Source: Sphingobium sp. TKS
GTDB taxonomy: Bacteria > Pseudomonadota > Alphaproteobacteria > Sphingomonadales > Sphingomonadaceae
Length of the DNA stretch: 64,000 nucleotides
Assembly: GCF_001563265.1 (NCBI RefSeq)
Contig: NZ_CP005083.1
Location: 623,001 to 687,000 of the forward strand
Direction of reading: 5' to 3'
Position numbers and translations under genes: made by a program. Positions 27,600 to 56,053 of the stretch are shown here, one piece after another. The notes beneath the pieces are model-generated. The model was not told where the DNA came from and searched no databases. It was given only the letters and a program-made list of their open reading frames with translations. Each line of letters opens with the position of its first letter. Positions within the stretch are counted from its first letter, which is position 1.

Positions 27600-27684
27600 A
27601 TTGGAGCTTTGGCTGCGTGGGATCGGACTTGTCGAACTGTCTCTGTCGAGGTTCTTGGCTAGAGCGACCAAAATGCGATTGGCT

Positions 27685-27710
27685 GTAACCAATCAGGCGC
27701 CCGGATCGAA
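27685..27710 (+). promoter_or_regulatory. ECF-sigma promoter of the bufferin operon (GTAACC-N16-CGAA)
   Basis: GTAACC (27685-27690) and CGAA (27707-27710) are separated by 16 bases, an ECF-type -35/-10 pair. The ATG of bufA lies 50 bases downstream. The sigma gene at 30206 sits in the operon this promoter drives. The same exact pair occurs at four other sites in the window. Confidence 0.8.
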
Positions 27711-27760: not shown

Positions 27761-28051
27761 ATGAATGGTCCTACGAAATTGGCTGCGGCAGCGGCCGCCG
27801 CCACGCTAGCAGCAGCAGTTCTGTCCGCTTCTCCCGCGGCCGCCGGTGCGCCGCAAGAGAAGTGCTATGGTGTGGCGCTGAAGGGTCACAATGATTGCAA
27901 GGCCGGACCTGGCACCAGCTGCGCGGGAACCGCGTCCGTCGACTACCAAGGCAACGCCTGGAAGCTCGTGCCGGCAGGTTCGTGCATCAAGCAGGGGGGC
28001 ACGCTTGAAGCGCATGCAGGCAATACTCCTCCCGTCGCCCAGAAGGGCTGA
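27761..28051 (+). CDS. bufA: Bufferin precursor (DUF2282), copper-binding RiPP
   Basis: A 96-residue secreted protein. The signal peptide ([19 protein letters not shown]) is followed by a four-cysteine core, C35, C46, C54 and C75, in [20 protein letters not shown] and GSCIKQGG. That is the DUF2282 pattern. In the characterised bufferins, a DUF692 oxidase with its partner converts core cysteines to thiooxazole-type groups, and the product sequesters copper in the periplasm. The ATG at 27761 has AGAAGGA upstream. A short hairpin (AGGGCTGAAGCCCT) lies at its stop, before bufB. Confidence 0.9.
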
Positions 28052-28082: not shown

Positions 28083-28994
28083 ATGAAACGCCTGACCGAG
28101 CTGCCCCCCTTGGCGGGAATAGGACTGAAGCCCGAGCATTATGTATCGGTGCTGAATTCCGTGTCAGCCAGCACTTCCGCACCATTCCCGGCCTTGAGCG
28201 AGGCACCCGCCTGGATCGAGGTACATCCCCAGAACTATTATGGCGCGGGAGGCCCACCGCATCGGTGGCTCTCAACGATTGCCGAACACCTGCCCTTGAG
28301 CTTTCATTCGGTTGGGCTGTCACTTGGGAGCTCCGCTGGGCATGATCGCGCAGACCTCGATCACCTGACGGCGCTGTGCGATCGCTACGAGCCTGCGGTG
28401 GTCTCCGACCATCTCAGCTGGAGTGGTACTGCCTCCAATCGCTACCCGGATCTCCTGCCGGTTCCCTACACCTACGAGGCACTGGGGCATGTCGTGGCGC
28501 AAATCTCCATGGTACAGGACCGGCTGAAGCGACCCATCCTCATCGAAAACCCGTCGCGCTATCTCGCCTTTGCCGATGATGACATGGATGAGGTCGATTT
28601 CCTCCACCTGCTCTGCGAACTGAGCGGCTGTGGCATTCTCCTCGACATCAACAACATCGAGGTTTCGGCAACCAATCTCGGGCTCAACCCGATCGCCATG
28701 ATCGATTCGATCGATCCGGACCTGGTCGGGGAGGTCCACCTCGCCGGCCACGCGCGCGAGCAACATGCGGATGGCCCGCTCCTCATCGACGACCACGGCT
28801 CCCCTGTCTCCGATCTGAGCTGGGCGCTGTTCACCCGGTTCATCGGACGCGCCGGTCCGCGACCGACGCTCATCGAATGGGACACCGATATCCCGGAATA
28901 TGCGGTGTTGATGGCCGAAGCACGGACGGCCGGTGCGATCATGCAAGAGCAAGCCGCCATTGCGATGGTGGAGGCACTCCATGCTCACGCTTGA
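28083..28994 (+). CDS. bufB: Multinuclear non-heme iron-dependent oxidase (DUF692)
   Basis: A 303-residue TIM-barrel enzyme of the MNIO family, which binds two or three iron ions and oxidises cysteines of a ribosomal peptide. Likely ligand motifs are SFHSVG (H75), VSDHLSW (H110), ILIENPS (E155), LLDINN (D188), EVHLAGH (H219, H223) and IEWDTDIP (E265, D267). The early EVHPQNY replaces the more common E-N-[YF] with Q-N-Y. It acts on BufA together with the BufC partner encoded next. ATG at 28083; the 3' end overlaps bufC. Confidence 0.9.
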   Translation: MKRLTELPPLAGIGLKPEHYVSVLNSVSASTSAPFPALSEAPAWIEVHPQNYYGAGGPPHRWLSTIAEHLPLSFHSVGLSLGSSAGHDRADLDHLTALCDRYEPAVVSDHLSWSGTASNRYPDLLPVPYTYEALGHVVAQISMVQDRLKRPILIENPSRYLAFADDDMDEVDFLHLLCELSGCGILLDINNIEVSATNLGLNPIAMIDSIDPDLVGEVHLAGHAREQHADGPLLIDDHGSPVSDLSWALFTRFIGRAGPRPTLIEWDTDIPEYAVLMAEARTAGAIMQEQAAIAMVEALHAHA

Positions 28995-29754
28995 TTTGGC
29001 ACAGTCGGCGATGATGCGCTCGCTCGAACTGGGGCCCGACGAACTCCCCGACGGGTTGTTTGCTGGAACCCGGTCCCGTGTGCTGATGGGCATGAAGGTT
29101 CATGCCAACACGATCTCGCACGCCCGGCTCGTCGCTCTGGAGGATACGTTTCCGCGTACCCGAGCGCTTCTCGGCCATGAACGGTTCAACGAACACTCCC
29201 GGCGGTTTACTGGCTTGCCGGGAGTGACCGCCCGCACGCTCGCCGAGATCGGGGCAAGTTTCCCAGGCTTTCTCGATCAAGTCGGCGAGACCTGCACGGC
29301 GGTCGATCTTGCACACTTCGAATGGGAGTGGCTCGAAGCCTACCACGCGGCCGAAGCCTCGCCGCTCAGGCTTTCGGCGCTTGCCGGAATCGGTGAAGCC
29401 GCGATGCTAGAGGTTGAGATCGCCGGTCATCCGGCGGCCCGGATCGTCCACCCTGATCGCGCCGTGAACCACCTGCTTGGAGACGAAGTTCCTGGCCTGA
29501 CAGAGGCTGAGGCGATCCTGATTGCCCGGCCCGATGCCGAAGTCTTCGTCTCGCCGGCGTCTTTGACGATGGCCAGAATGTTTACGGAAGTCGAATTGCC
29601 CACGAGCATCGGTAACCTTTTTGCCGGTCTCACCGAACCCGGCTGTAAGGATCGATTGCTGCCCGACGACTTTATGCCTGCGCTGATTGCGCTGATCGAG
29701 GCGGGCGCATTGCAGCAAATCGATCGTCGTTCGAACAACAGGTGGGATCGATGA
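28981..29754 (+). CDS. bufC: MNIO partner protein (DUF2063)
   Basis: A 257-residue protein with the DUF2063 N-terminal helical domain (HANTISHARLVALEDTFPRT is characteristic) and a less conserved C-terminal alpha/beta domain. Such partners hold the precursor peptide for the DUF692 oxidase. The ATG overlaps the bufB end and has GGAGG upstream; the stop overlaps doxX (ATGA). An internal GTAACC-N16-CGAA sequence lies at 29612-29637. Confidence 0.85.
   Translation: MLTLDLAQSAMMRSLELGPDELPDGLFAGTRSRVLMGMKVHANTISHARLVALEDTFPRTRALLGHERFNEHSRRFTGLPGVTARTLAEIGASFPGFLDQVGETCTAVDLAHFEWEWLEAYHAAEASPLRLSALAGIGEAAMLEVEIAGHPAARIVHPDRAVNHLLGDEVPGLTEAEAILIARPDAEVFVSPASLTMARMFTEVELPTSIGNLFAGLTEPGCKDRLLPDDFMPALIALIEAGALQQIDRRSNNRWDR
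29612..29637 (+). promoter_or_regulatory. Internal ECF-sigma promoter in bufC
   Basis: GTAACC (29612-29617), 16 bases, then CGAA (29634-29637) inside the bufC coding region. It precedes doxX, the sigma gene and nrsF, so it would let the sigma factor amplify itself and its anti-sigma without bufAB. Exact match to the bufA promoter; it could still be a coding coincidence. Confidence 0.5.
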
Positions 29755-30209
29755 ATCGACTACTTGCTCTATACGACCGGGCCGTGGCCCAGCTTTCCGC
29801 AAGGCTACCCGAGAGTCTGATGCTGCTGTTCATGCGCGTCGTGCTCGCTGGCGTGTTTTGGCGTTCCGGGCAGACCAAGATCGCCGAAGGCACCTGGTTC
29901 ACGATCAGCGACAATGCCTACGCCTTGTTCGAATCCGAGTACAGCGGGGTTCCACTGCCCAGCCATCTCGCTGCGGTCATGGCCACGGTCTCCGAACATC
30001 TCTTCCCGGTCCTGCTGGTGTTCGGCCTGTTGACGCGGTTTGCCGCGCTGGCGCTACTGGGAATGACCATGGTCATCCAGATCTTTGTCTACCCCGATGC
30101 CTGGTGGACTGAGCATTCGCTGTGGGTTGCCATGCAGCTTGCGCTCATCGTGCGCGGCGCCGGTATATTTTCTCTCGACGCGCTGTTTGCACGTGGCCGC
30201 GCCTCATGA
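29751..30209 (+). CDS. DoxX-family membrane protein
   Basis: A 152-residue four-helix membrane protein (LMLLFMRVVLAGVFWRSGQT start; later HLFPVLLVFGLLTRFAALAL). DoxX proteins are regular members of bufferin operons; their role is unclear, perhaps in quinone or thiol redox. Both ends overlap neighbouring genes by the ATGA arrangement, so it belongs to the operon. Confidence 0.85.
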   Translation: MNRLLALYDRAVAQLSARLPESLMLLFMRVVLAGVFWRSGQTKIAEGTWFTISDNAYALFESEYSGVPLPSHLAAVMATVSEHLFPVLLVFGLLTRFAALALLGMTMVIQIFVYPDAWWTEHSLWVAMQLALIVRGAGIFSLDALFARGRAS

Positions 30210-30730
30210 GGCCCGACGAGGCCTCGCTGGCCCGCCTCATGGCCATGGCCCAAAACGGCGATCGACAGGCATACGGCGCCCTGTTGACGGAATGCCAGCG
30301 CTGGCTGCGGTCCTACTATTCGCGCCGCATTGCGCCAAACCATCTCGACGATCTCGTGCAGGATACCTTGATGGCACTGCACCGAAAGCTTGCCTCCTAT
30401 GATCCGTCGCGCGCCTTCCTGCCCTGGCTTGCTGCAATCGCCCGTTACCGCTGGGTCGATCACCTTCGTCAGGTATACCGGGCCGATGAAACCGAGCTGG
30501 ACGATCATCTGGCGGACGAGAGCGAAGAGTCTGTGGTCGCCGCCCGGATTAGTCTGGAACGATTGTTCGCCCAACTACCTGATAATCAGGCCCAGGCAAT
30601 CGAATTGGTCAAGATCGAAGGCCTGTCGATCGCCGAGGCTGCCCGTGCCTGCGGCCAGAGCGAATCCCTGATAAAGGTCAATATTCACCGGGGGCTGAAG
30701 AAGCTCTCCGCGATGATCGAGAAAGCCTGA
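30206..30730 (+). CDS. ECF RNA polymerase sigma factor (SigF-like)
   Basis: A 174-residue sigma factor with region 2 (LDDLVQDTLMALHRKL, then FLPWLAAIARYRWVDHLR) and region 4 (ELVKIEGLSIAEAARACGQS, with IHRGLKKL). It pairs with the NrsF-type anti-sigma encoded next. In Caulobacter, SigF with NrsF controls DUF2282/DUF692 operons, and the promoter sequence repeated in this window fits an ECF target. ATG overlaps doxX. Confidence 0.9.
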   Translation: MRPDEASLARLMAMAQNGDRQAYGALLTECQRWLRSYYSRRIAPNHLDDLVQDTLMALHRKLASYDPSRAFLPWLAAIARYRWVDHLRQVYRADETELDDHLADESEESVVAARISLERLFAQLPDNQAQAIELVKIEGLSIAEAARACGQSESLIKVNIHRGLKKLSAMIEKA

Positions 30731-30733
30731 ACG

Positions 30734-31414
30734 ATGTCCCGCAATACCCCTCCATCGGTTGCCCCCTCCGTCGGCAACCCCACCGGCGTCCTGATTGCCC
30801 AACTGGTTGATGGTCTTGAGCCTGTTCGGCCGCTGCGCTTTTCAAGCGGACTGGGCTTTGCACTCGCCGGGCTGGGAGTGACCATGACCACGGTGGCCCT
30901 GCTGTTTGGCATCCGGCCCGATGTTATCACTGGCAGTTTCGATCCGGTATTCCTGCTCGCTACGGGCCTGTTTCTCTTGCTCGGTCTGGCCTGTGCGGTC
31001 ACGGTGATCATGATGAGCCGGCCCCGCGTAGGCAGCGATCATGGCGGTTGGGTATGGGCGGTCGCCATGGCAGCGCTACTTCCGATTGCGGCCACCATTA
31101 GCAGTCTCGGCAGGGGACCGGCTGCCTTCACGGCCAGCGCAGCGCAGCAGGGCTTTGATTGCCTGATGGCTGGCAGTGGGCTCGCATTGATGACCTTTGC
31201 TGTATTGATCTGGTGGCTGCGGCGGGGCGCACCCACCTCGCCCGGGCGCGCTGGTCTGCTTGCCGGCATCGCCGCCGGCAGCTTCGGCATATTCGCGATC
31301 TCATTTCATTGCGATTCCAGCGACATCGTCCACATCGGGCTGTGGCACAGTGCCGTCGTGGTAGTAAGCGCCCTCGTCGGCAGAATCGCAGTTCCGCCGC
31401 TGATCCGCTGGTAG
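30734..31414 (+). CDS. nrsF: NrsF-type anti-sigma factor (DUF1109)
   Basis: A 226-residue membrane protein with six helices and an N-terminal cytoplasmic segment (LIAQLVDGLEPVRPLR) that would bind the sigma factor. The helices contain FHCDSSDIVHI, a conserved Cys/His patch likely to sense the metal or oxidative signal; a second conserved cysteine is in GFDCLMAG. It begins 3 bases after the sigma gene and ends the operon. Release of the sigma factor on metal exposure is known for the family. Confidence 0.9.
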   Translation: MSRNTPPSVAPSVGNPTGVLIAQLVDGLEPVRPLRFSSGLGFALAGLGVTMTTVALLFGIRPDVITGSFDPVFLLATGLFLLLGLACAVTVIMMSRPRVGSDHGGWVWAVAMAALLPIAATISSLGRGPAAFTASAAQQGFDCLMAGSGLALMTFAVLIWWLRRGAPTSPGRAGLLAGIAAGSFGIFAISFHCDSSDIVHIGLWHSAVVVVSALVGRIAVPPLIRW

Positions 31415-37342: not shown

Positions 37343-37768
37343 TTACAAGGCGTTCGGCTGCGAACAATTGAGCACATCGAGAATTGCACATTCCGGCGTT
37401 GTATCGCCCGAACACAATCCCGCCATCCGTGAGAGTTCGGCCTCGATTCGCATGAGGTCACCAATACGCTCACGCACATCTGACAAATGCTTCTCGGTCC
37501 TGCTCTTCACCTCGGTGCATGTCTGTTTGCCAGTGTCGGTCAACGACAATAGCGAGCGAATTTCTTCCATCGCGAAACCCAGGTCGCGTGCGCGCAGGAT
37601 GAACCGCAACCTTCGCACCAGCTCGGGTGAATAGACTCTATAGCCGTTCGCACTGCGCGGAGGTGGGGGCAGCAATCCCACCTTCTCATAGTAGCGGATG
37701 GTTTCGAGGTTGCAGCCCGTCCGCTTTGCCAACTGCGCCCGCAACAAACCTGGCTGTCGATCCATCAA
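37343..37768 (-). CDS. merR: MerR regulator of the mercury operon
   Basis: A 141-residue MerR-family protein with an HTH start (LAKRTGCNLETIRYYEKVGL) and cysteines C84, C119 and C127 that match the three Hg(II) ligands of MerR (spacing 35, then 8 instead of the usual 9). It is divergent from merTPFA and faces a 19-bp-spaced promoter. Mercury sensing is likely from context; the shorter second spacing is closer to other MerR subgroups. Confidence 0.85.
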   Translation of the reverse strand: MMDRQPGLLRAQLAKRTGCNLETIRYYEKVGLLPPPPRSANGYRVYSPELVRRLRFILRARDLGFAMEEIRSLLSLTDTGKQTCTEVKSRTEKHLSDVRERIGDLMRIEAELSRMAGLCSGDTTPECAILDVLNCSQPNAL

Positions 37769-37777
37769 AAAAACCCC

Positions 37778-37808
37778 TTGAGCCTGTAGCTGCTACAGGG
37801 ATTACACC
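37778..37808 (+). promoter_or_regulatory. mer operator-promoter
   Basis: TTGAGC (-35, 37778-37783) and TACACC (-10, 37803-37808) are separated by 19 bp. Between them CCTGTAG-CTG-CTACAGG (37783-37799) is a perfect inverted repeat, the expected MerR binding site between merR and merT. Confidence 0.75.
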
Positions 37809-37826
37809 GTGAATCGGGAAATCTGA

Positions 37827-38237
37827 ATGGAGTTTTTCGCGATGCCATCATCACCGGAATCGAGACCATTGCCCCTCACTCCCGACAAGGGAGAAACTGG
37901 GGCCAACTGGATTGCGGCCGGAGCCTTGATCGGCGCGGGGCTGGCTTCGGCCTGCTGCATCGTGCCGCTGGCTCTCGTTTCGCTCGGAATTTCCGGTGCG
38001 TGGATCGCCAATCTGACGGCGCTCGAACCTTACAAGCCCTATGTAGGAGCCGTTACGCTCGCGATCCTCGGCTTCGGCTTCTGGCACGTCTATTTCAAAC
38101 CGAAACCGCCCTGCGCGGACGGCTCATATTGTGCCCGCCCACAATCGGCTCGCATCACCAAGACGGTGCTGTGGATTGGTCTCGTCATCGTCATCGCAGC
38201 GCTCACGCTCAACTGGTGGGCGCCCTGGTTCTATTGA
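37827..38237 (+). CDS. merT: Mercuric ion transporter
   Basis: A 136-residue inner-membrane protein with three helices. The first carries the Hg-binding pair in GLASACCIVPLALVSLGISG; a second cysteine pair is in PPCADGSYCAR on the loop. It accepts Hg(II) from MerP and passes it to MerA. ATG at 37827 with GGGAA upstream; ATG at 37842 is an alternative. First gene of merTPFA. Confidence 0.9.
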   Translation: MEFFAMPSSPESRPLPLTPDKGETGANWIAAGALIGAGLASACCIVPLALVSLGISGAWIANLTALEPYKPYVGAVTLAILGFGFWHVYFKPKPPCADGSYCARPQSARITKTVLWIGLVIVIAALTLNWWAPWFY

Positions 38238-38249
38238 AAGGATACAGTC

Positions 38250-38579
38250 ATGAAGAAGACCATCCTCACCGGCCTCGCCGTGCTGGCAATGACCGGCGGC
38301 GGCGTTGCCTATGCGATTGGCGGCAAGGCGCAGAATCGTCCTGCAGCTTCCGCTACAGTGCAGCGTCAGACCACCCTCGCCATCGAAAACATGACCTGCG
38401 CGCTCTGCCCAGTAACCGTGAAGAAGGCGATGGAAGGCGTGGCGGGCGTGAATTCCGTCGCGGTCGATTTTAATGCCAAGACTGCCACGGTCGCGTTCGA
38501 TCCATCCAGGACAACAATCGCCGCCATCGCGCAAGCTTCGACCCGCGCGGGCTATCCGGCGCACCCGATAAAGGGCTGA
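38250..38579 (+). CDS. merP: Periplasmic mercury-binding protein
   Basis: A 109-residue secreted HMA protein: signal peptide (LAVLAMTGGGVAYAIG), then an HMA fold with C50-x2-C53 (ENMTCALCPVTVKKAME). It picks up periplasmic Hg(II) for MerT. The leader contains a run of Gly/Ala typical of MerP. It sits 12 bases after merT and 4 bases before merF. Confidence 0.9.
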   Translation: MKKTILTGLAVLAMTGGGVAYAIGGKAQNRPAASATVQRQTTLAIENMTCALCPVTVKKAMEGVAGVNSVAVDFNAKTATVAFDPSRTTIAAIAQASTRAGYPAHPIKG

Positions 38580-38583
38580 GGCG

Positions 38584-38793
38584 ATGAAGGATCGGACGCT
38601 TATCGGCGTCGGTGTCACCGGTGCCGCACTTGCAGCGTTGTGCTGTTTCACGCCGGTGCTTGTGGCGTTGGCCGGGATAGTCGGCCTTTCGGCGATCACC
38701 GGCTATCTTGATTATGTGCTGTTGCCTGCGCTCGTGTTCTTCGTTGGCCTCACCATCTTTGCCGTTGTGCGGCAACGACCCAAAACAAAGTAA
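38584..38793 (+). CDS. merF: Mercury transport protein MerF
   Basis: A 69-residue two-helix membrane protein with the metal pair CCFTPVLVALAGIVG and a second helix (YVLLPALVFFVGLTIFAVV). MerF is an extra Hg(II) importer that supplements MerT. Start ATG at 38584. The gene is short, as usual for the family, and merA follows after 10 bases. Confidence 0.9.
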   Translation: MKDRTLIGVGVTGAALAALCCFTPVLVALAGIVGLSAITGYLDYVLLPALVFFVGLTIFAVVRQRPKTK

Positions 38794-38803
38794 GGGATTC
38801 CAC

Positions 38804-40228
38804 ATGACCGACTGTTGCACCCTGCCGACGCGGGATGGATTTGACGTGGCCGTCATCGGCGCTGGCTCCGCCGGTTTTTCCGCCGCGATCACCGCCGCCG
38901 AGCTTGGGGCGAAAGTGGCGCTTGTCGGGCATGGCACGATTGGCGGCACCTGCGTCAATGTTGGCTGCGTTCCGTCCAAGACGCTGATCCGCGCCGCCGA
39001 GGCGGTGCATGGCGGACTTGCCGCGCGCAGGTTCCCGGGGCTTGGCGGAACCATCGCACTTGAAGACTGGCGCGAGCTCGCGGCAGCGAAGAATGAACTG
39101 GTCGCGGGCCTTCGCCAGAAGAAATATGTCGACCTGCTGCCCGCCTACCCCGGTGTCAGCTATATCGAGGGTAAGGCGCGCTTTGCCGATAGCGCGCTGA
39201 TCGTCGGCGATGCGCCGATGCCGGCCGACAAGATCATTCTGGCGATGGGCGCACGCGCGGCTGCGCCGCCTATCCCGGGGCTGGACTCTGTGGCCTTCCT
39301 TACCAGCACCTCGGCGTTGGCGCTCGATCGTCTGCCGAAATCGCTGCTGGTGATTGGCGGCGGGGTGATTGGCGTCGAACTGGGGCAGATGTTCGCCCGC
39401 CTGGGGGTTGCCATCACCATCTGCTGCCGCAGTCGCCTGCTTCCTGAGCTGGATCCGGACGTCAGCGCCGCGTTGCGAGGTTATCTCGAAGCCGAGGGAA
39501 TCCGGGTTTGTGCGGGCGTTCGTTATCAGCGCATCGAGCAGACCGCGGGCGGGGTCGAACTGACTTGCGACGGAAGCGCACCGTCCTCGACCATCGCGGC
39601 AGAGCAAGTGCTGATCGCCACCGGGCGCCAGCCCAATAGCGACGGACTGGGGCTGGAGGGACGCGGCGTAGCGCTTGACCCACACGGCGGGATCATCGTT
39701 GATGATTATCTCGAAACCGGCGAGCCGGGCATCTACGCTGCTGGCGATGTCACCGGGCGCGACCAGTTCGTCTACATGGCTGCCTATGGCGCGAAGCTCG
39801 CCGCGCGCAATGCGCTCGAAGGCAACCTCCACCGCTACGACAATTCCGCGATGCCTGTGGTGGTTTTCACCGATCCGCAGGTCGCCAGCGTCGGCCTGAC
39901 CGAAACGGCTGCGCGGGCGCAAGGGCTGGATGTGAAGGTATCGCTTCTCCCGCTCGATGCCGTTCCGCGCGCACTGGCGGCACGCGATACGCGCGGGCTG
40001 ATCAAGCTGGTTGCCGACAAGGCGAGCGATCGCTTGCTCGGCGGGCAGATCATGGCCCCCGAAGGCGCCGATTCGATTCAAACTCTTGTGCTGGCGATCA
40101 AGCACGGCATGAGCGCCGCAGACCTTGGTGCGACGATTTTCCCTTATCTGACAACGGTGGAGGGCCTGAAACTGGCTGCGCAGACGTTCGATAAGGATGT
40201 CGCCAAACTGTCCTGCTGCGCTGGATAA
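38804..40228 (+). CDS. merA: Mercuric reductase
   Basis: A 474-residue flavoprotein that reduces Hg(II) to volatile Hg(0) with NADPH. The FAD loop is VAVIGAGSAGFSAA, the active-site pair C50 and C55 is in GGTCVNVGCVPSK, and the C-terminal mercury-binding pair C471-C472 is in KLSCCAG. The N-terminal HMA domain of many MerA proteins is absent. The ATG at 38804 has AAGGGA upstream; the longer frame from 38708 overlaps merF and is rejected. Confidence 0.95.
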   Translation: MTDCCTLPTRDGFDVAVIGAGSAGFSAAITAAELGAKVALVGHGTIGGTCVNVGCVPSKTLIRAAEAVHGGLAARRFPGLGGTIALEDWRELAAAKNELVAGLRQKKYVDLLPAYPGVSYIEGKARFADSALIVGDAPMPADKIILAMGARAAAPPIPGLDSVAFLTSTSALALDRLPKSLLVIGGGVIGVELGQMFARLGVAITICCRSRLLPELDPDVSAALRGYLEAEGIRVCAGVRYQRIEQTAGGVELTCDGSAPSSTIAAEQVLIATGRQPNSDGLGLEGRGVALDPHGGIIVDDYLETGEPGIYAAGDVTGRDQFVYMAAYGAKLAARNALEGNLHRYDNSAMPVVVFTDPQVASVGLTETAARAQGLDVKVSLLPLDAVPRALAARDTRGLIKLVADKASDRLLGGQIMAPEGADSIQTLVLAIKHGMSAADLGATIFPYLTTVEGLKLAAQTFDKDVAKLSCCAG

Positions 40229-43418: not shown

Positions 43419-43628
43419 ATGAAAAGGCCGATCATGGCCTTCTTTGCTCTTGCCTTTGCATTGCCTGCGCTTGCCGCCATCGAACTGGCATACCTATTCC
43501 GCACCAGCATTTACCCAGCTCCAGTCCGCCAGCAGACAGCCGATTGCGGACAGCAGCCCCATATTCAGCCCGGCAAAGCAAGGAGATGCGAGCGCGCCAT
43601 GTCACGCAGAACACCAGCTTCGAGCTGA
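43419..43628 (+). CDS. Small secreted hypothetical protein
   Basis: A 69-residue product with a good signal-like start (MKRPIMAFFALAFALPALAA) and a polar tail with two cysteines. The ribosome-binding site is strong (GGAGGAG, 9 bases before ATG). Its 3' end overlaps the convergent CBS gene by 64 bases, so the tail may be a readthrough after truncation. Unknown function. Confidence 0.4.
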   Translation: MKRPIMAFFALAFALPALAAIELAYLFRTSIYPAPVRQQTADCGQQPHIQPGKARRCERAMSRRTPASS

Positions 43629-44020
43629 GCTTCCTCGAGCAAGGCAGCAACCAGGTCCCCGAGCGACACAAGGCCCGCTACGGCTCCAAGCATGCTTCTC
43701 ACCACGGCATGCCGGCAACGCTCCCTGGTCATAGTCCGCATGACGTCGGCAGCATTGTCCTCGCAATAGCAGGTCGGAACCGGGTTGCGCATGAAGGCCG
43801 TCACTGGGGCTTTCAGAGCATGCGGACCATGCTGGGCGATGGCCGCCGTCAGTTCGTGCTGTGTAAGGAGCCCGATGATCGCAGATGTGTTTCCATCTGC
43901 CACGCCGACTGACCCGATCGACAGGCGATGCATCACATCGGCCGCTTCCGACATTGACGTCATTTCGGTCACTGTCTCGAACTGACGCCCATTGCGGTTA
44001 ACGATTGCGGCAATCTTCAT
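43565..44020 (-). CDS. CBS-domain protein
   Basis: A 151-residue protein made of a CBS pair (MKIAAIVNRNG, MSEAADVMHRLSIGSVGV, then MRTMTRERCRHAVV and GAVAGLVSLGDLVAALLEE). CBS pairs sense adenosine ligands. The ATG at 44020 has GGAGG eight bases upstream. It has its own exact GTAACC-N16-CGAA promoter at 44057-44082, placing it in the bufferin sigma regulon. No fused enzyme domain. Confidence 0.8.
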   Translation of the reverse strand: MKIAAIVNRNGRQFETVTEMTSMSEAADVMHRLSIGSVGVADGNTSAIIGLLTQHELTAAIAQHGPHALKAPVTAFMRNPVPTCYCEDNAADVMRTMTRERCRHAVVRSMLGAVAGLVSLGDLVAALLEEAQLEAGVLRDMARSHLLALPG

Positions 44021-44056
44021 ATCAGGCACCTCCAAGTGATTGCTCCCTTCAGTCTA

Positions 44057-44082
44057 TTCGGGAGATTTGGGAGCCTGGTTAC
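44057..44082 (-). promoter_or_regulatory. ECF-sigma promoter of the CBS gene
   Basis: On the minus strand GTAACC (44082-44077), 16 bases, then CGAA (44060-44057). The start codon of the CBS gene lies 36 bases downstream. Same exact sequence pair and spacing as the bufA promoter. Confidence 0.75.
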
Positions 44083-44113
44083 ACGCGCCGAGGCCGGGAG
44101 GCCGAAACGGGCC

Positions 44114-44554
44114 TCAAGTCGCACTCCGCAATAGCTCGAAAAGCGCGGCTTCATTGGTCGGCGCGCCGCGTGCGACCTCACTGGTGCCCTTGAACACAAC
44201 CAACGTGCCGTACCCGTGCAGTTTGAACCGCTTCCACACCGCGTTCGGCGTTTTCTCTCCGATCCTAAGGATCACTATATTCCTGAACTGTTCCTGTGAG
44301 CGTAGCCGCTCAAGGATCGGCGACTGGATTCTGCATGAAAGGCACCACGGCGCGTAAGTCTCCACGACGACAGCCAGTCCTTCTGCCTGTGATCTCGCAA
44401 ACGCAGAATCGTCGAAGGGGATCGGAGCTGTGCCCGTTTTGACGTCGACTCGAGGAAAGGCCGATTGCAGCGAACTTGCGCTTTCGGCGCGTGCGCCGAG
44501 CGGCAGCGCGAGTGCAAGCGACAGAACCGTCAAAAAATGACGCGGTCCCGGCAT
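44114..44554 (-). CDS. Secreted thioredoxin-fold protein
   Basis: A 146-residue protein with a signal peptide (FLTVLSLALALPLGARA) and a thioredoxin fold with the redox site C71-x2-C74 (YAPWCLSCRIQ). The CxxC is WCLSC rather than WCGPC. The likely site is the periplasm, where it could reduce or protect thiols. It has its own exact ECF-type promoter at 44585-44610, so a role in keeping bufferin or cysteine-ladder peptides reduced is a reasonable inference. ATG at 44554; TTG at 44557 is an alternative. Confidence 0.75.
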   Translation of the reverse strand: MPGPRHFLTVLSLALALPLGARAESASSLQSAFPRVDVKTGTAPIPFDDSAFARSQAEGLAVVVETYAPWCLSCRIQSPILERLRSQEQFRNIVILRIGEKTPNAVWKRFKLHGYGTLVVFKGTSEVARGAPTNEAALFELLRSAT

Positions 44555-44584
44555 CAAGGCTTCTCACTAGGCATCCTGACACTA

Positions 44585-44610
44585 TTCGCGGCGCGGAGCG
44601 CCAAGGTTAC
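44585..44610 (-). promoter_or_regulatory. ECF-sigma promoter of the thioredoxin-like gene
   Basis: On the minus strand GTAACC (44610-44605), 16 bases, then CGAA (44588-44585), 31 bases before the ATG at 44554. Exact match to the other four sites. Confidence 0.75.
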
Positions 44611-44730
44611 ATGGCGCAAGCGGCGCGATGAAATCCGGACCGCTGCTGTAAGGATCTGCGCGGACTTTCGACAAACGGCGAACCTTAAAAATTTTGTCCC
44701 TTGTCGAATTTCTGGTTCCGGAGATTTTCC

Positions 44731-49896: not shown

Positions 49897-50550
49897 TCAA
49901 AGGATTCCGAGGCTTTCGATCTTGTCGTCAATGTCAATCGCTAGGGAGGCAAGAACGGCATTCCCTGACTCGTAGATCGACTCAGGACCAGCGACCTTCT
50001 GAAGGCAAGCAAGAGCTGCGTCGCGCTCGCGCAGAAGTTGGCCGAGTTCATCCCGGTAAAGCGCAACCATGGCGGTCAGGAACCGGTTTACCGCATCATC
50101 CTCGTCGGTGTGGTCGACATTGAAGCGATCGAGGTGCGCGATCAGCACTTCAGCCGGGTGCATGAATTCATCGGTCACCCAGCGATTGGTCGCAAACCAC
50201 GTGATGGGGATGCCTTGGCGATCGATCGACAAGCCCGCGATGTGGGCAACAAGGGCCGGAGCATCATCGCCTTCGGCAGGGGCGGCTATGATTTCGGCAC
50301 CCTCGTCCATCTGCGTCCGGTGCAGGAACAGGTGAAAATGCCCATGCTCGGCCGGATCGCGATCACCAGGTGCATGGACATGGTAATACCAGCGCGACCG
50401 TGTCTCGCGATCACGCGCATCGTCGTCTGGATAATGCTCCCAGCAGATAGCGTCCGTAGCAGGCAGCACGCGTGTCATCAGCGGGCGCCCCTCGCTTGCC
50501 ATGCGGACGATCATATCGGTGACGATTCGGGCCGCCTCAACTTTCTTCAC
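49897..50550 (-). CDS. Conserved hypothetical protein (DUF6969-like)
   Basis: A 217-residue cytoplasmic protein with a His-rich middle (SRWYYHVHAPGDRDPAEHGH, then FHLFLHRTQMDEG) and a helical C-terminus. It resembles proteins I recall as DUF6969; the assignment is tentative. It is downstream of the two cysteine-ladder genes on the same strand, with a 14-bp hairpin between, so it may belong to their unit. GTG start. Confidence 0.6.
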   Translation of the reverse strand: MKKVEAARIVTDMIVRMASEGRPLMTRVLPATDAICWEHYPDDDARDRETRSRWYYHVHAPGDRDPAEHGHFHLFLHRTQMDEGAEIIAAPAEGDDAPALVAHIAGLSIDRQGIPITWFATNRWVTDEFMHPAEVLIAHLDRFNVDHTDEDDAVNRFLTAMVALYRDELGQLLRERDAALACLQKVAGPESIYESGNAVLASLAIDIDDKIESLGIL

Positions 50551-50593: not shown

Positions 50594-50626
50594 TGACCGG
50601 CGACAGGTTGTCCCTGTCGCCGGTCA
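50594..50626. terminator. 14-bp hairpin between cysteine-ladder gene and DUF6969-like gene
   Basis: TGACCGGCGACAGG and CCTGTCGCCGGTCA form a perfect 14-bp stem around a 5-base loop. There is no T-run on either strand, so it may slow or process the transcript rather than end it. It lies 65 bases past the stop of the cysteine-ladder gene at 50691. Confidence 0.45.
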
Positions 50627-50690: not shown

Positions 50691-50963
50691 TCAGTTGTGG
50701 TGACGGTGTGTGCGATGATGCATATGATGTGGTTTTGCCGCGCAGGGCTTTGCCGCGCAGCGGGCGGCAGCACAAGGCTTTGCCGCACAGCCCGCTGCAG
50801 CGCACCGCTTGCCTGCGCAGGGAGCACCGGCACAGCCCTTGGCACCACAACGGGCCGCGGAACGGCCAGCGCATTGTGCAAAGGCCGGTGCCGAAGGAAC
50901 GCCGGCAGCAACAGCGAGACCGCCAGCTACGGCAAGCAGCGAAGCGAGTTTACGGTTCTTCAT
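50691..50963 (-). CDS. Secreted cysteine-ladder peptide 1
   Basis: A 90-residue peptide. The signal region (LAVAAGVPSAPAFAQ) ends near residue 30; then C31, and eight cysteines exactly five apart: 39, 44, 49, 54, 59, 64, 69 and 74. The unit is C-A-A-K-P with small changes. A His-rich tail (HHMHHRTHRHHN) ends it. Five-residue cysteine periodicity also occurs in HvfA-type peptides (EGKCG repeats) modified by DUF692 oxidases. Metal binding is strongly suggested; the modification is inferred. ATG at 50963 with AGAAGGA upstream; second gene after the 51459 promoter. Confidence 0.8.
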   Translation of the reverse strand: MKNRKLASLLAVAGGLAVAAGVPSAPAFAQCAGRSAARCGAKGCAGAPCAGKRCAAAGCAAKPCAAARCAAKPCAAKPHHMHHRTHRHHN

Positions 50964-51026
50964 GATAGAATCCTTCTGATTTGGGTATTCAAAGTGGTGC
51001 TCGTCACGGATGCGCGATGACCGCGA

Positions 51027-51302
51027 TTATGGCTTGGCGGCGCAGGGTTTTGCCGCGCAGCCCCTGGGAGCGCAGGGCTTCGCCCCGCACTTCTTGGCGG
51101 CACACGGCTTGGGGGAGCAGCTTGACGCTGCGCACGATGCGGCCGTGCAAGGCTTGGCTGCGGCACCGGTTGCGGCTTGATCCGCCAGGGCGGCACCCGT
51201 TGGCGGTTCTGCCTGTCTTTCCGTTTGCTTTGAACAGGCGGACGTGGCGATCGTCAGCCCCCCCATTACCGCGAGCATCGATGCCAATCTGGCTTTCTTC
51301 AT
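51027..51302 (-). CDS. Secreted cysteine-ladder peptide 2
   Basis: A 91-residue peptide with an N-terminal signal (ASMLAVMGGLTIATSAC), cleaved as a signal peptide or possibly a weak lipobox at C23. A linker follows, then eight cysteines five residues apart: 52, 57, 62, 67, 72, 77, 82 and 87. Units run C-[ATSG]-[AP]-[KAR]-x, ending CAAKP-CAAKP. It shares the ladder with the gene at 50691 but not the linker, so the pair diverged from one ancestor. ATG at 51302 with GGAGGGGGGAGA upstream. It is the first gene after the exact ECF promoter at 51459. Confidence 0.8.
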   Translation of the reverse strand: MKKARLASMLAVMGGLTIATSACSKQTERQAEPPTGAALADQAATGAAAKPCTAASCAASSCSPKPCAAKKCGAKPCAPRGCAAKPCAAKP

Positions 51303-51458: not shown

Positions 51459-51484
51459 TTCGGTCGGCGGATCGCGTTGGTTAC
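51459..51484 (-). promoter_or_regulatory. ECF-sigma promoter of the cysteine-ladder operon
   Basis: On the minus strand GTAACC (51484-51479), 16 bases, then CGAA (51462-51459). The first ATG (51302) lies about 157 bases downstream, so a long leader is expected. Exact match in both boxes and spacing to the bufA promoter. Confidence 0.75.
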
Positions 51485-54790: not shown

Positions 54791-56053
54791 TCAGCCTCCG
54801 TAAGGTTCCAGCACAAGGTCGCGCGTCACCATCACCCGGACCGGGAATCCCGGTCTGACGGTCAGAGTGGGCGCAATGCCAAGCTGGCGGCTCACGATTT
54901 GCTGGCCGGTCTGGCTGATGCTGTTCGAGGCCCCCGAGCGCAGCGCCTGCAACAGGCTGTTCTCGCTCTGGTTGGTTCCTGCCTCGGCCCCCACTGAAAG
55001 CAGCGTCGAAAGCGCCGCGGCCTTGAACATCTCGCTCCAGTGGAAATCGACGCCATCTTCCAGGCCCGCATAGCCCTCAGCATTCGCACCGGGCTGCCGC
55101 TCGAGGACGATCGAGCGGCCATCGGGCATGATGAGCCGGTTCCAGACCAGCAAAACCCGCCGCTGACCGAAGCCGACGCCGCTGTCATACTGGCCAACGA
55201 TCCGCGTCCCCTGAGGCACGAGCAAGATCCGGCCGGTGGGGCTGTCATAGACATTCTGGGTAACCTGCGCGGTGATCTGGCCGGGCACGTCGGAGCGGAT
55301 GCCGGTGATCAGCGCAGCAGGAATGACGGCCCCCGCCTGAAGCACATTGGGCGATGCCGGTGCTGTGATCCGGTCCGGCGCCAAAGTGCGCTTGTCGGGC
55401 GTTTGCCCGAGGAAGGCGAGTTGCCGGTCCTGCGCCGAAGGCGTGGCGGACTGCGGCGCGAGACCGAGCCCAGCCAGATCGGTTGCCGCCGCGCCGGGCG
55501 GCGGGATGGATGAGGCATTTCCCGAGACGGCCTGGGAGGCCGAGAACAGACGGGCTGTTCGCGCAGCCTCCAGTTCCTGACGACGACGCTGCACTTCTGG
55601 ATCGGGAGCGGCAGGCGCGGGAACCGGCGCTGCCATCCCGGGCACGGGGACGGGCTGACCGTTGTTCTGCGCACTGAGAATCGGGCGGCCGAGATCACCC
55701 GGGAGTGGCGGGCCGAGGCGGGGGACGGCGCCGTAGTCCTTGGGAAGCCCAGCCAGCCCGTCAGGTGCGCTGCGGCCGTCCGTTGCGTATAGTTCCTCGC
55801 TCGCCTTGCCGCCGTGCTGGACCTGAAGTGCGTAGATCAGCGCGCCGCCGATGCCGAGCCCCGCTGCGATACCGAACCCGGCCAGCACTTTGCGCGACAG
55901 GCGGGTCACGCGCGGCGGTTCGGGCCGCAGCCGCATGCGGGCCACCGGCTCGCCAACGAGCGGCAGCGCGCCGTCTCCATCTTCCGCATCCGCCCGGACA
56001 CCGCTCTGCGGCGTCCTACCTTCTTCCCTTCCCGGACCGCGTTCGTCGCTCAC
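54791..56053 (-). CDS. trbI: Conjugation protein TrbI (VirB10-like)
   Basis: A 420-residue core-complex protein with an N-terminal cytoplasmic tail, one membrane helix (VLAGFGIAAGLGIGGALIYA), a Pro-rich periplasmic linker and a C-terminal VirB10 beta-barrel domain (GVDFHWSEMFKAAALSTLLS, then VTRDLVLEPYGG). It links inner and outer membranes in the type IV channel. Overlaps trbG by 4 bp. Confidence 0.95.
   Translation of the reverse strand: MSDERGPGREEGRTPQSGVRADAEDGDGALPLVGEPVARMRLRPEPPRVTRLSRKVLAGFGIAAGLGIGGALIYALQVQHGGKASEELYATDGRSAPDGLAGLPKDYGAVPRLGPPLPGDLGRPILSAQNNGQPVPVPGMAAPVPAPAAPDPEVQRRRQELEAARTARLFSASQAVSGNASSIPPPGAAATDLAGLGLAPQSATPSAQDRQLAFLGQTPDKRTLAPDRITAPASPNVLQAGAVIPAALITGIRSDVPGQITAQVTQNVYDSPTGRILLVPQGTRIVGQYDSGVGFGQRRVLLVWNRLIMPDGRSIVLERQPGANAEGYAGLEDGVDFHWSEMFKAAALSTLLSVGAEAGTNQSENSLLQALRSGASNSISQTGQQIVSRQLGIAPTLTVRPGFPVRVMVTRDLVLEPYGG

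Follow-up and report, generated by a model that had tools for sequence, protein, structure and literature searches.

The nearest known systems with respect to their logic are the bufferins and captophorins (BufABC, HvfABC, FonABC), which the available portions of PMC12452194 and PMC13097082 describe as exported copper peptides modified by MNIO enzymes. With the two peptides studied here, P1 and P2, they share an exported cysteine-rich precursor equipped with a Sec signal and, in the case of Buf1, the affiliation to a sigma-F regulon. The EGKCG group of these peptides contains, as do P1 and P2, repeated five-residue cysteine units. In contrast to P1 and P2, which lack EGKCG and whose neighbour is a DUF6969 protein, the known precursors are encoded beside an MNIO and a DUF2063-type partner. 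According to PMC3511200, GTAACC-N16-CGAA is the motif of Caulobacter sigma-F, which takes part in the chromium and cadmium response. RpoE7 of Sinorhizobium meliloti, an ECF sigma factor of the same group, has DUF692 and DUF2063 targets, as stated in the available sections of PMC6180224.

The window, i.e. the whole stretch of 64,000 nucleotides which was analysed, harbours a bufferin cluster as well as the operon encoding P2, P1 and DUF6969 (Table 1). The BufC-like gene of this cluster yields no NCBIfam match at 1e-5. As pointed out in the preliminary description, the ladder operon contains no DUF692 gene of its own, the single one being located about 22 kb away; this bufB turns out to be the sole copy in the genome as well, where no second DUF692 gene is detected at E 0.001. 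The window further contains a mercury resistance operon (37343-40228) composed of a MerR-type regulator gene on the minus strand and of MerT-, MerP-, MerF- and MerA-type genes on the plus strand. MerF and MerA exceed their NCBIfam cut-offs while the MerR-, MerT- and MerP-type genes score below them.

Table 1. Features of the window considered in this study, with strand and supporting evidence.
Feature	Position	Strand	Remarks
Motif TGTAACC-N16-CGAA upstream of bufA	27684..27710	+	exact match
BufA-type bufferin precursor	27761..28051	+	NF050166 33.8 bits, below cut-off 60; position before bufB
BufB, DUF692/MNIO	28083..28994	+	NF050167 326.3 bits, cut-off 310
BufC-like gene	28981..29754	+	BufB partner by position; relatives adjoin BufB in L025, L031, L035
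ECF sigma factor, sigma-F type	30209..30730	+	named from position and neighbours
NrsF-like anti-sigma factor	30734..31414	+	NF042994 44.4 bits, below cut-off 300
DUF6969 (PF22308)	49897-50550	-	217 aa; Pfam 207.7 bits, gathering score 27; cytoplasmic by inspection
Hairpin (RNA)	50594..50626	-	33 nt, loop of 5 nt on a 14-bp stem; located between P1 and DUF6969
P1	50691-50963	-	90 aa; Sec-type cysteine-ladder peptide, eight Cys five apart, His tail
P2	51027-51302	-	91 aa; lipoprotein-type cysteine-ladder peptide, eight Cys five apart
Sigma-F type motif TGTAACC-N16-CGAA upstream of P2	51459..51485	-	exact match

The ladders of eight cysteines which the preliminary description had assigned to residues 39-74 of P1 and 52-87 of P2 are exact: they comprise Cys39, 44, 49, 54, 59, 64, 69 and 74 in P1 and Cys52, 57, 62, 67, 72, 77, 82 and 87 in P2, with one extra cysteine outside the ladder in each peptide (Cys31 in P1, Cys23 in P2). 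When each peptide was shuffled from residue 23 to its end, an eight-cysteine chain of this spacing occurred in none of 100,000 shuffles, and a chain of even four cysteines five residues apart is found in just two of the 589 open frames (at least 60 aa) of the window. Signal sequences are, as had been claimed, discernible by inspection on both peptides. That of P2 appears to be of the lipoprotein type with a lipobox-like TSA-C23, whose cysteine is retained in those alignment rows which are of P2 type, while that of P1 is of the signal-peptidase-I type (AFA-QC); P2 and P1 are therefore predicted to be anchored differently. The C-terminal tail of P1, correctly recognised as His-rich, contains seven histidines between positions 79 and 89. 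The likeness to the five-residue cysteine repeats of HvfA-type peptides holds for the spacing but does not extend further, since inspection reveals no EGKCG motif in P1 or P2 and neither is matched by any Pfam family.

Protein searches returned 14 relatives of P2 and four of P1, two of them common to both sets, with no Pfam domain on record for any of them. A scan of genome contigs with the alignment of these relatives yielded 22 related loci. The titles of 17 of these name Sphingomonadales genera or the order, and those of the other five name Alphaproteobacteria or Proteobacteria MAGs only. The loci were found through their leader pattern and include two near-identical pairs (L025/L026 and L034/L035). 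Across them the leader KLASMLAVxGGLxxATxAC is kept while the array varies, and the surplus of synonymous differences seen in the leader, which the search with the leader pattern partly builds in, is not used as evidence. Most arrays are every-fifth ladders; CAACGAA patterns are present in L028, L029, L032 and L033, and CC pairs in L039 and L040. His-tailed relatives of P1 are P0015 and peptides encoded in L020 (9317-9658) and L023 (9560-9820), that of L020 being oriented oppositely and preceded by its own motif. Since 24 genomes of the same genus contain no match to P2 at E 0.001, the operon appears to be patchily distributed within the genus. Such a distribution would fit a mobile or integrated element, of which the region around a TrbI/VirB10-type conjugation gene of the window (54791-56053, minus strand; 195 bits for the best NCBIfam match, which is below cut-off) may form part.

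Along the minus strand the operon is arranged in the order sigma-F motif (51485-51459), P2, P1, hairpin and DUF6969. The promoter said to be common to the ladder operon and bufA was confirmed as an exact TGTAACC-N16-CGAA at 51459 (-) and 27684 (+). Altogether, four exact copies are present in the window. The other two, at 44585 (-) and 44057 (-), precede a thioredoxin-domain gene and a CBS-domain gene, respectively (43565-44611, minus strand), which are probable further members of the regulon; relatives of both genes in L021, L022 and L023 have motifs at similar places. A copy of GTAACC-N16-CGAA within the 3' part of bufC (29611-29637, plus strand) recurs at a similar place in L025, L026, L031 and L035 and is perhaps a second promoter for doxX-ECF-nrsF. 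If up to two mismatches are allowed, 14 copies are counted in the window compared to a shuffle mean of 8.5, an excess which is not clear as 7 of 100 shuffles reach 14. Genome-wide, exact GTAACC-N16-CGAA is not enriched (12 copies vs 18 for the reversed control); five of these 12 fall in the 64-kb window. In 11 of the 22 related loci the exact motif precedes the ladder gene at a distance of up to 400 bp. The corresponding binomial P of about 3e-15, whose background rate was taken from the loci themselves, is too good because these loci are not independent, some being near-identical. A strong hairpin is predicted in each of the 12 peptide-DUF6969 gaps which were folded (the window and 11 of the 22 related loci), the folding having covered these gaps alone.

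Directly downstream of P1 lies the DUF6969 gene, which the preliminary description did not mention. DUF6969 follows the peptide gene in all 22 related loci, although in L036 it is cut by the contig end, and is thus the constant, dedicated neighbour of the ladder peptides. A CMD/AhpD-like gene, also considered as a partner, was set aside as it is present in just four of the 22 loci (L019, L021, L022, L031). Searches which start from DUF6969 are free of the leader-pattern bias of the 22 loci. They gave 65 matches above cut-off in 64 loci, with carriers among the genomes sampled from the order (38 of 296) and from the phylum (20 of 398); four genomes are in both sets, which makes 54 in total. A strict automatic rule, demanding at least five cysteines within 35 mostly small or polar residues on the same strand and ending at most 1 kb upstream, detects a cysteine array at 39 of the 64 DUF6969 loci compared to 7 of 164 control genes taken from these loci (Fisher P 6e-20). 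By eye, an array adjoins DUF6969 in 50 of the 64 loci (45 upstream on the same strand, two downstream, three divergent) or, counted by genome, in 49 of 54 (47 of 54 without L108 and L120). The remaining loci are L108 with three cysteines, L120 with the array in another frame, and 12 without array (L091, L092, L093, L096, L097, L098, L099, L106, L109, L114, L116, L122), of which L114 is truncated by the end of its contig and L106 retains the leader but has no array. Just upstream of DUF6969 in L120 (4000-4660), a signal-peptide-like start and a CKGCKG/CGGCGG array lie in different frames; this split is either an assembly error or a real break. The array-less copies in L091, L093 and L096-L099 are mostly second copies in genomes which also possess an array-linked one, and in L093 and L097 a fatty-acid desaturase gene is located 3' of DUF6969.

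The repeats beside DUF6969 include NPCAAK, NPCAAN, NPCGPKK, CAAKKPC, CGAAKCGAK and CCAAEG. Despite these differences the link between array and DUF6969 is held in several classes; on psymA of S. meliloti a peptide with APCAAGAPC is encoded just upstream of DUF6969. Fusion to a cytochrome P460 domain is seen for the arrays of L089, L090, L094 and L118 (in L110 below cut-off), those of L115, L124, L125 and L126 carry a SoxA/TsdA cytochrome c domain, and a gene for a sulfatase-modifying factor adjoins in L094 and L073. The reverse query with an NPC-type array matches 23 of the 398 phylum genomes, 8 with DUF6969 and 15 without, so that arrays are able to exist without DUF6969; 13 of these 15 genomes belong to one family (f43). 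In this family, the NPC-type arrays of L153-L158, L160, L166, L167, L170 and L171 possess an extra C-terminal part and no DUF6969 match is found; several of these arrays adjoin genes with multihaem-like CxxCH motifs. Within the searched open PMC library, which is devoid of subscription papers, no paper contains the name DUF6969 or the repeat strings of the arrays, and the pairing of both appears to be undescribed there.

DUF6969 is characterised by the signature YHxH...EHGHFHxF...H. In an alignment of 66 rows H57, H71, H73 and H103 are invariant and H39, H59, E68 and H69 near-invariant. The predicted model is confident (pLDDT 91.3). Neither a sequence search of the PDB, which revealed nothing credible, nor a comparison of the model with the PDB (Foldseek, VIA) gave a notable match, the top rows of the latter including LolA-like domains at chance level. 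This absence of a structural match to a predicted model does not imply that the fold of DUF6969 is new. As the predicted fold is without known relative, any enzyme activity of DUF6969 is a guess. The idea that DUF6969 might be a disguised BufC or BufB was set aside at hhalign probabilities of 0.1 and 0.4 per cent, respectively, a missing match which carries little weight as the profiles are thin (4 and 5 sequences).

The preliminary description regarded P1 and P2 as candidate MNIO substrates. In the form that BufB and BufC act on them in trans, converting the cysteines to thiooxazoles with DUF6969 as an accessory protein, we consider this unlikely, with evidence on either side. The motif common to the ladder operon and bufA agrees with it. 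Moreover, bufB and the ladder gene are no more than about 9 kb apart in five of the 22 related loci (L020, L025, L026, L031, L035); homologues near DUF692 genes, whose absence the preliminary description would have held against its proposal, thus exist. ECF and/or nrsF alone are found near the ladder in three further loci (L024, L030, L034). Of the 13 genomes containing every-fifth ladders, 12 possess DUF692, compared to 145 of 296 in the order, which favours the MNIO-substrate reading, and the available portion of PMC12452194 reports bufferin precursors distant from MNIO genes as well as CxxxxC precursors beside them. L023 and L031 have the contig prefixes of L022 and L026; among the genomes behind the 20 other loci DUF692 is detected in 18, once through a 60-residue match, and is found neither for L024 nor for L039. 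Within the order, 26 of the 38 DUF6969 genomes also contain DUF692, a co-occurrence above chance (Fisher P 0.014), while 12 contain DUF6969 alone. It is these latter genomes that speak against a BufB/BufC reaction. Four of them (G142, G146, G228, G257; 99-100% complete) combine a CC-type array with DUF6969, and the other eight belong to further families of the order, where an array likewise accompanies DUF6969 in G030 and others. Similarly, the every-fifth ladder and DUF6969 of L024 are accompanied by ECF and nrsF and not by buf genes, and no DUF692 was found in its genome, although a loss by assembly is possible since L024 is a MAG. Also the missing EGKCG motif and family match of P1 and P2 argue against this reading. 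Hence, the proposal of the preliminary description is partly supported: it gains from the shared motif, the nearby bufB genes and the frequency of DUF692 in ladder genomes, and suffers from the presence of DUF6969 as constant neighbour and from the DUF6969 genomes devoid of DUF692. The array-DUF6969 and buf systems are often companions in one regulon, and the former exists without an MNIO. It is reasonable to view P1 and P2 as bufferin-type exported metal binders in their manner of working; their designation as MNIO substrates is not established.

The strongest rival is that the peptides stay unmodified and serve as metallothionein-like thiol buffers, while DUF6969 is a non-catalytic helper such as a chaperone, a sorting factor or an export regulator. 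We judge this as not very likely, even though the arrays of 15 out of the 23 genomes do without DUF6969, the fold of DUF6969 matches no enzyme, and low-complexity repeats of variable spacing would suit plain thiol chelation. The invariant His/Glu signature, however, would seem to resemble a metal site more than a chaperone surface, and the variation of the array beside an unchanging DUF6969 would fit an enzyme which tolerates different contexts. That the pairing merely reflects a coincidence of operon layout is extremely improbable. Array-less copies of DUF6969 do exist, those of L093 and L097 adjoining the desaturase gene, yet this is outweighed by the pairing in 22 of 22 loci, by the excess over the control genes and by the persistence of the link in several classes, with different repeats, and in S. 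meliloti.

The explanation which we prefer, and to which we attribute an even chance, is that P1 and P2 are exported cysteine-repeat buffers for metal, probably copper, which belong to a sigma-F (ECF16-type) heavy-metal regulon, and that DUF6969 handles their precursors while these are still in the cytoplasm. Metal stress would free the ECF sigma factor from NrsF, as suggested by the Caulobacter system, and the ladder operon and bufABC would be transcribed. P2 and P1 would be made in excess of DUF6969, the ratio probably being set by the intergenic hairpin. DUF6969 might recognise the conserved leader and act on the cysteines prior to Sec export by modifying them, by loading metal or by keeping them reduced. 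Of these options, modification has a slight advantage in view of the invariant His/Glu signature and of the layout of precursor, hairpin and putative enzyme. Once exported, P2 would be attached through a lipid anchor and P1 would be soluble, and Cu(I) or other soft metals would be bound by the thiol ladder and the His tail. In favour of this explanation count the position of DUF6969 in the 22 loci, the excess of arrays over the control genes, the persistence of the pairing across different repeats, the exact sigma-F motif, the conserved His and Glu residues of DUF6969, the intergenic hairpins, the mercury and bufferin operons in the same window and the His-tailed P1 relatives in P0015, L020 and L023. 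The NPC arrays without DUF6969 (15/23) and the array-less DUF6969 loci (12/64) count against it, and the co-occurrence of DUF6969 with DUF692 and the 12 of 13 ladder genomes possessing the latter would also suit an in-trans action of BufB and BufC.

Going one step further, DUF6969, so far known just as a domain of unknown function, could be the founder of a new class of metal-dependent maturases not of the MNIO fold which perform leader-guided cysteine modification of repeat arrays before export, a tentative notion to be taken with reserve. Its candidate substrates may then comprise ladder lipoproteins, NPCAAK arrays and arrays fused to cytochrome domains. Should this hold, the biosynthesis of cysteine-based metallophores would have originated on at least two occasions, and a single sigma-F regulon of sphingomonads would govern both systems. 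A role of DUF6969 in the maturation or loading of cysteine-repeat peptides would represent a second route to periplasmic thiol metallophores besides MNIO enzymes, and it would provide a function for the exported proteins with cysteine arrays known from several pseudomonadotan classes, the cytochrome P460 and cytochrome c fusions among them. As psymA of Sinorhizobium meliloti carries an array-DUF6969 pair, the proposal is testable in a tractable host.

Several described peptide families invite a comparison with P1 and P2. CefA (NF038108, Cys-every-fifth RiPP) likewise features a cysteine at each fifth residue; membership of P2 and P1 is rejected with 19.1 and 12.9 bits, respectively, below the curated cut-off of 30. 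Six of the 10 relatives which match this profile at all also score below 30, and a search over the phylum gives matches at E 0.001 in 15 of 398 genomes, of which a single one lies above cut-off. DAG-RiPPs are RiPP-lipoprotein hybrids whose MNIO, according to the available part of PMC12636315, recognises a conserved C-terminal motif. P2 resembles them as a possibly modified peptide on a lipoprotein signal and differs from them, as described in that part, by its conserved N-terminal leader, its repeat array and its DUF6969 partner. The accessible sections of PMC12452194 describe a CxxxxC precursor family of 76 proteins encoded beside MNIO genes, 54% of whose clusters contain a Lactamase_B_2 gene. 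Compared by this description, both this family and P1/P2 combine a signal peptide with a cysteine at every fifth residue, but, unlike P1 and P2, the CxxxxC family is defined by its MNIO neighbours. The same sections report Buf1 fused with cytochrome c and FGE-sulfatase domains, and this is a striking parallel to the arrays accompanying DUF6969.
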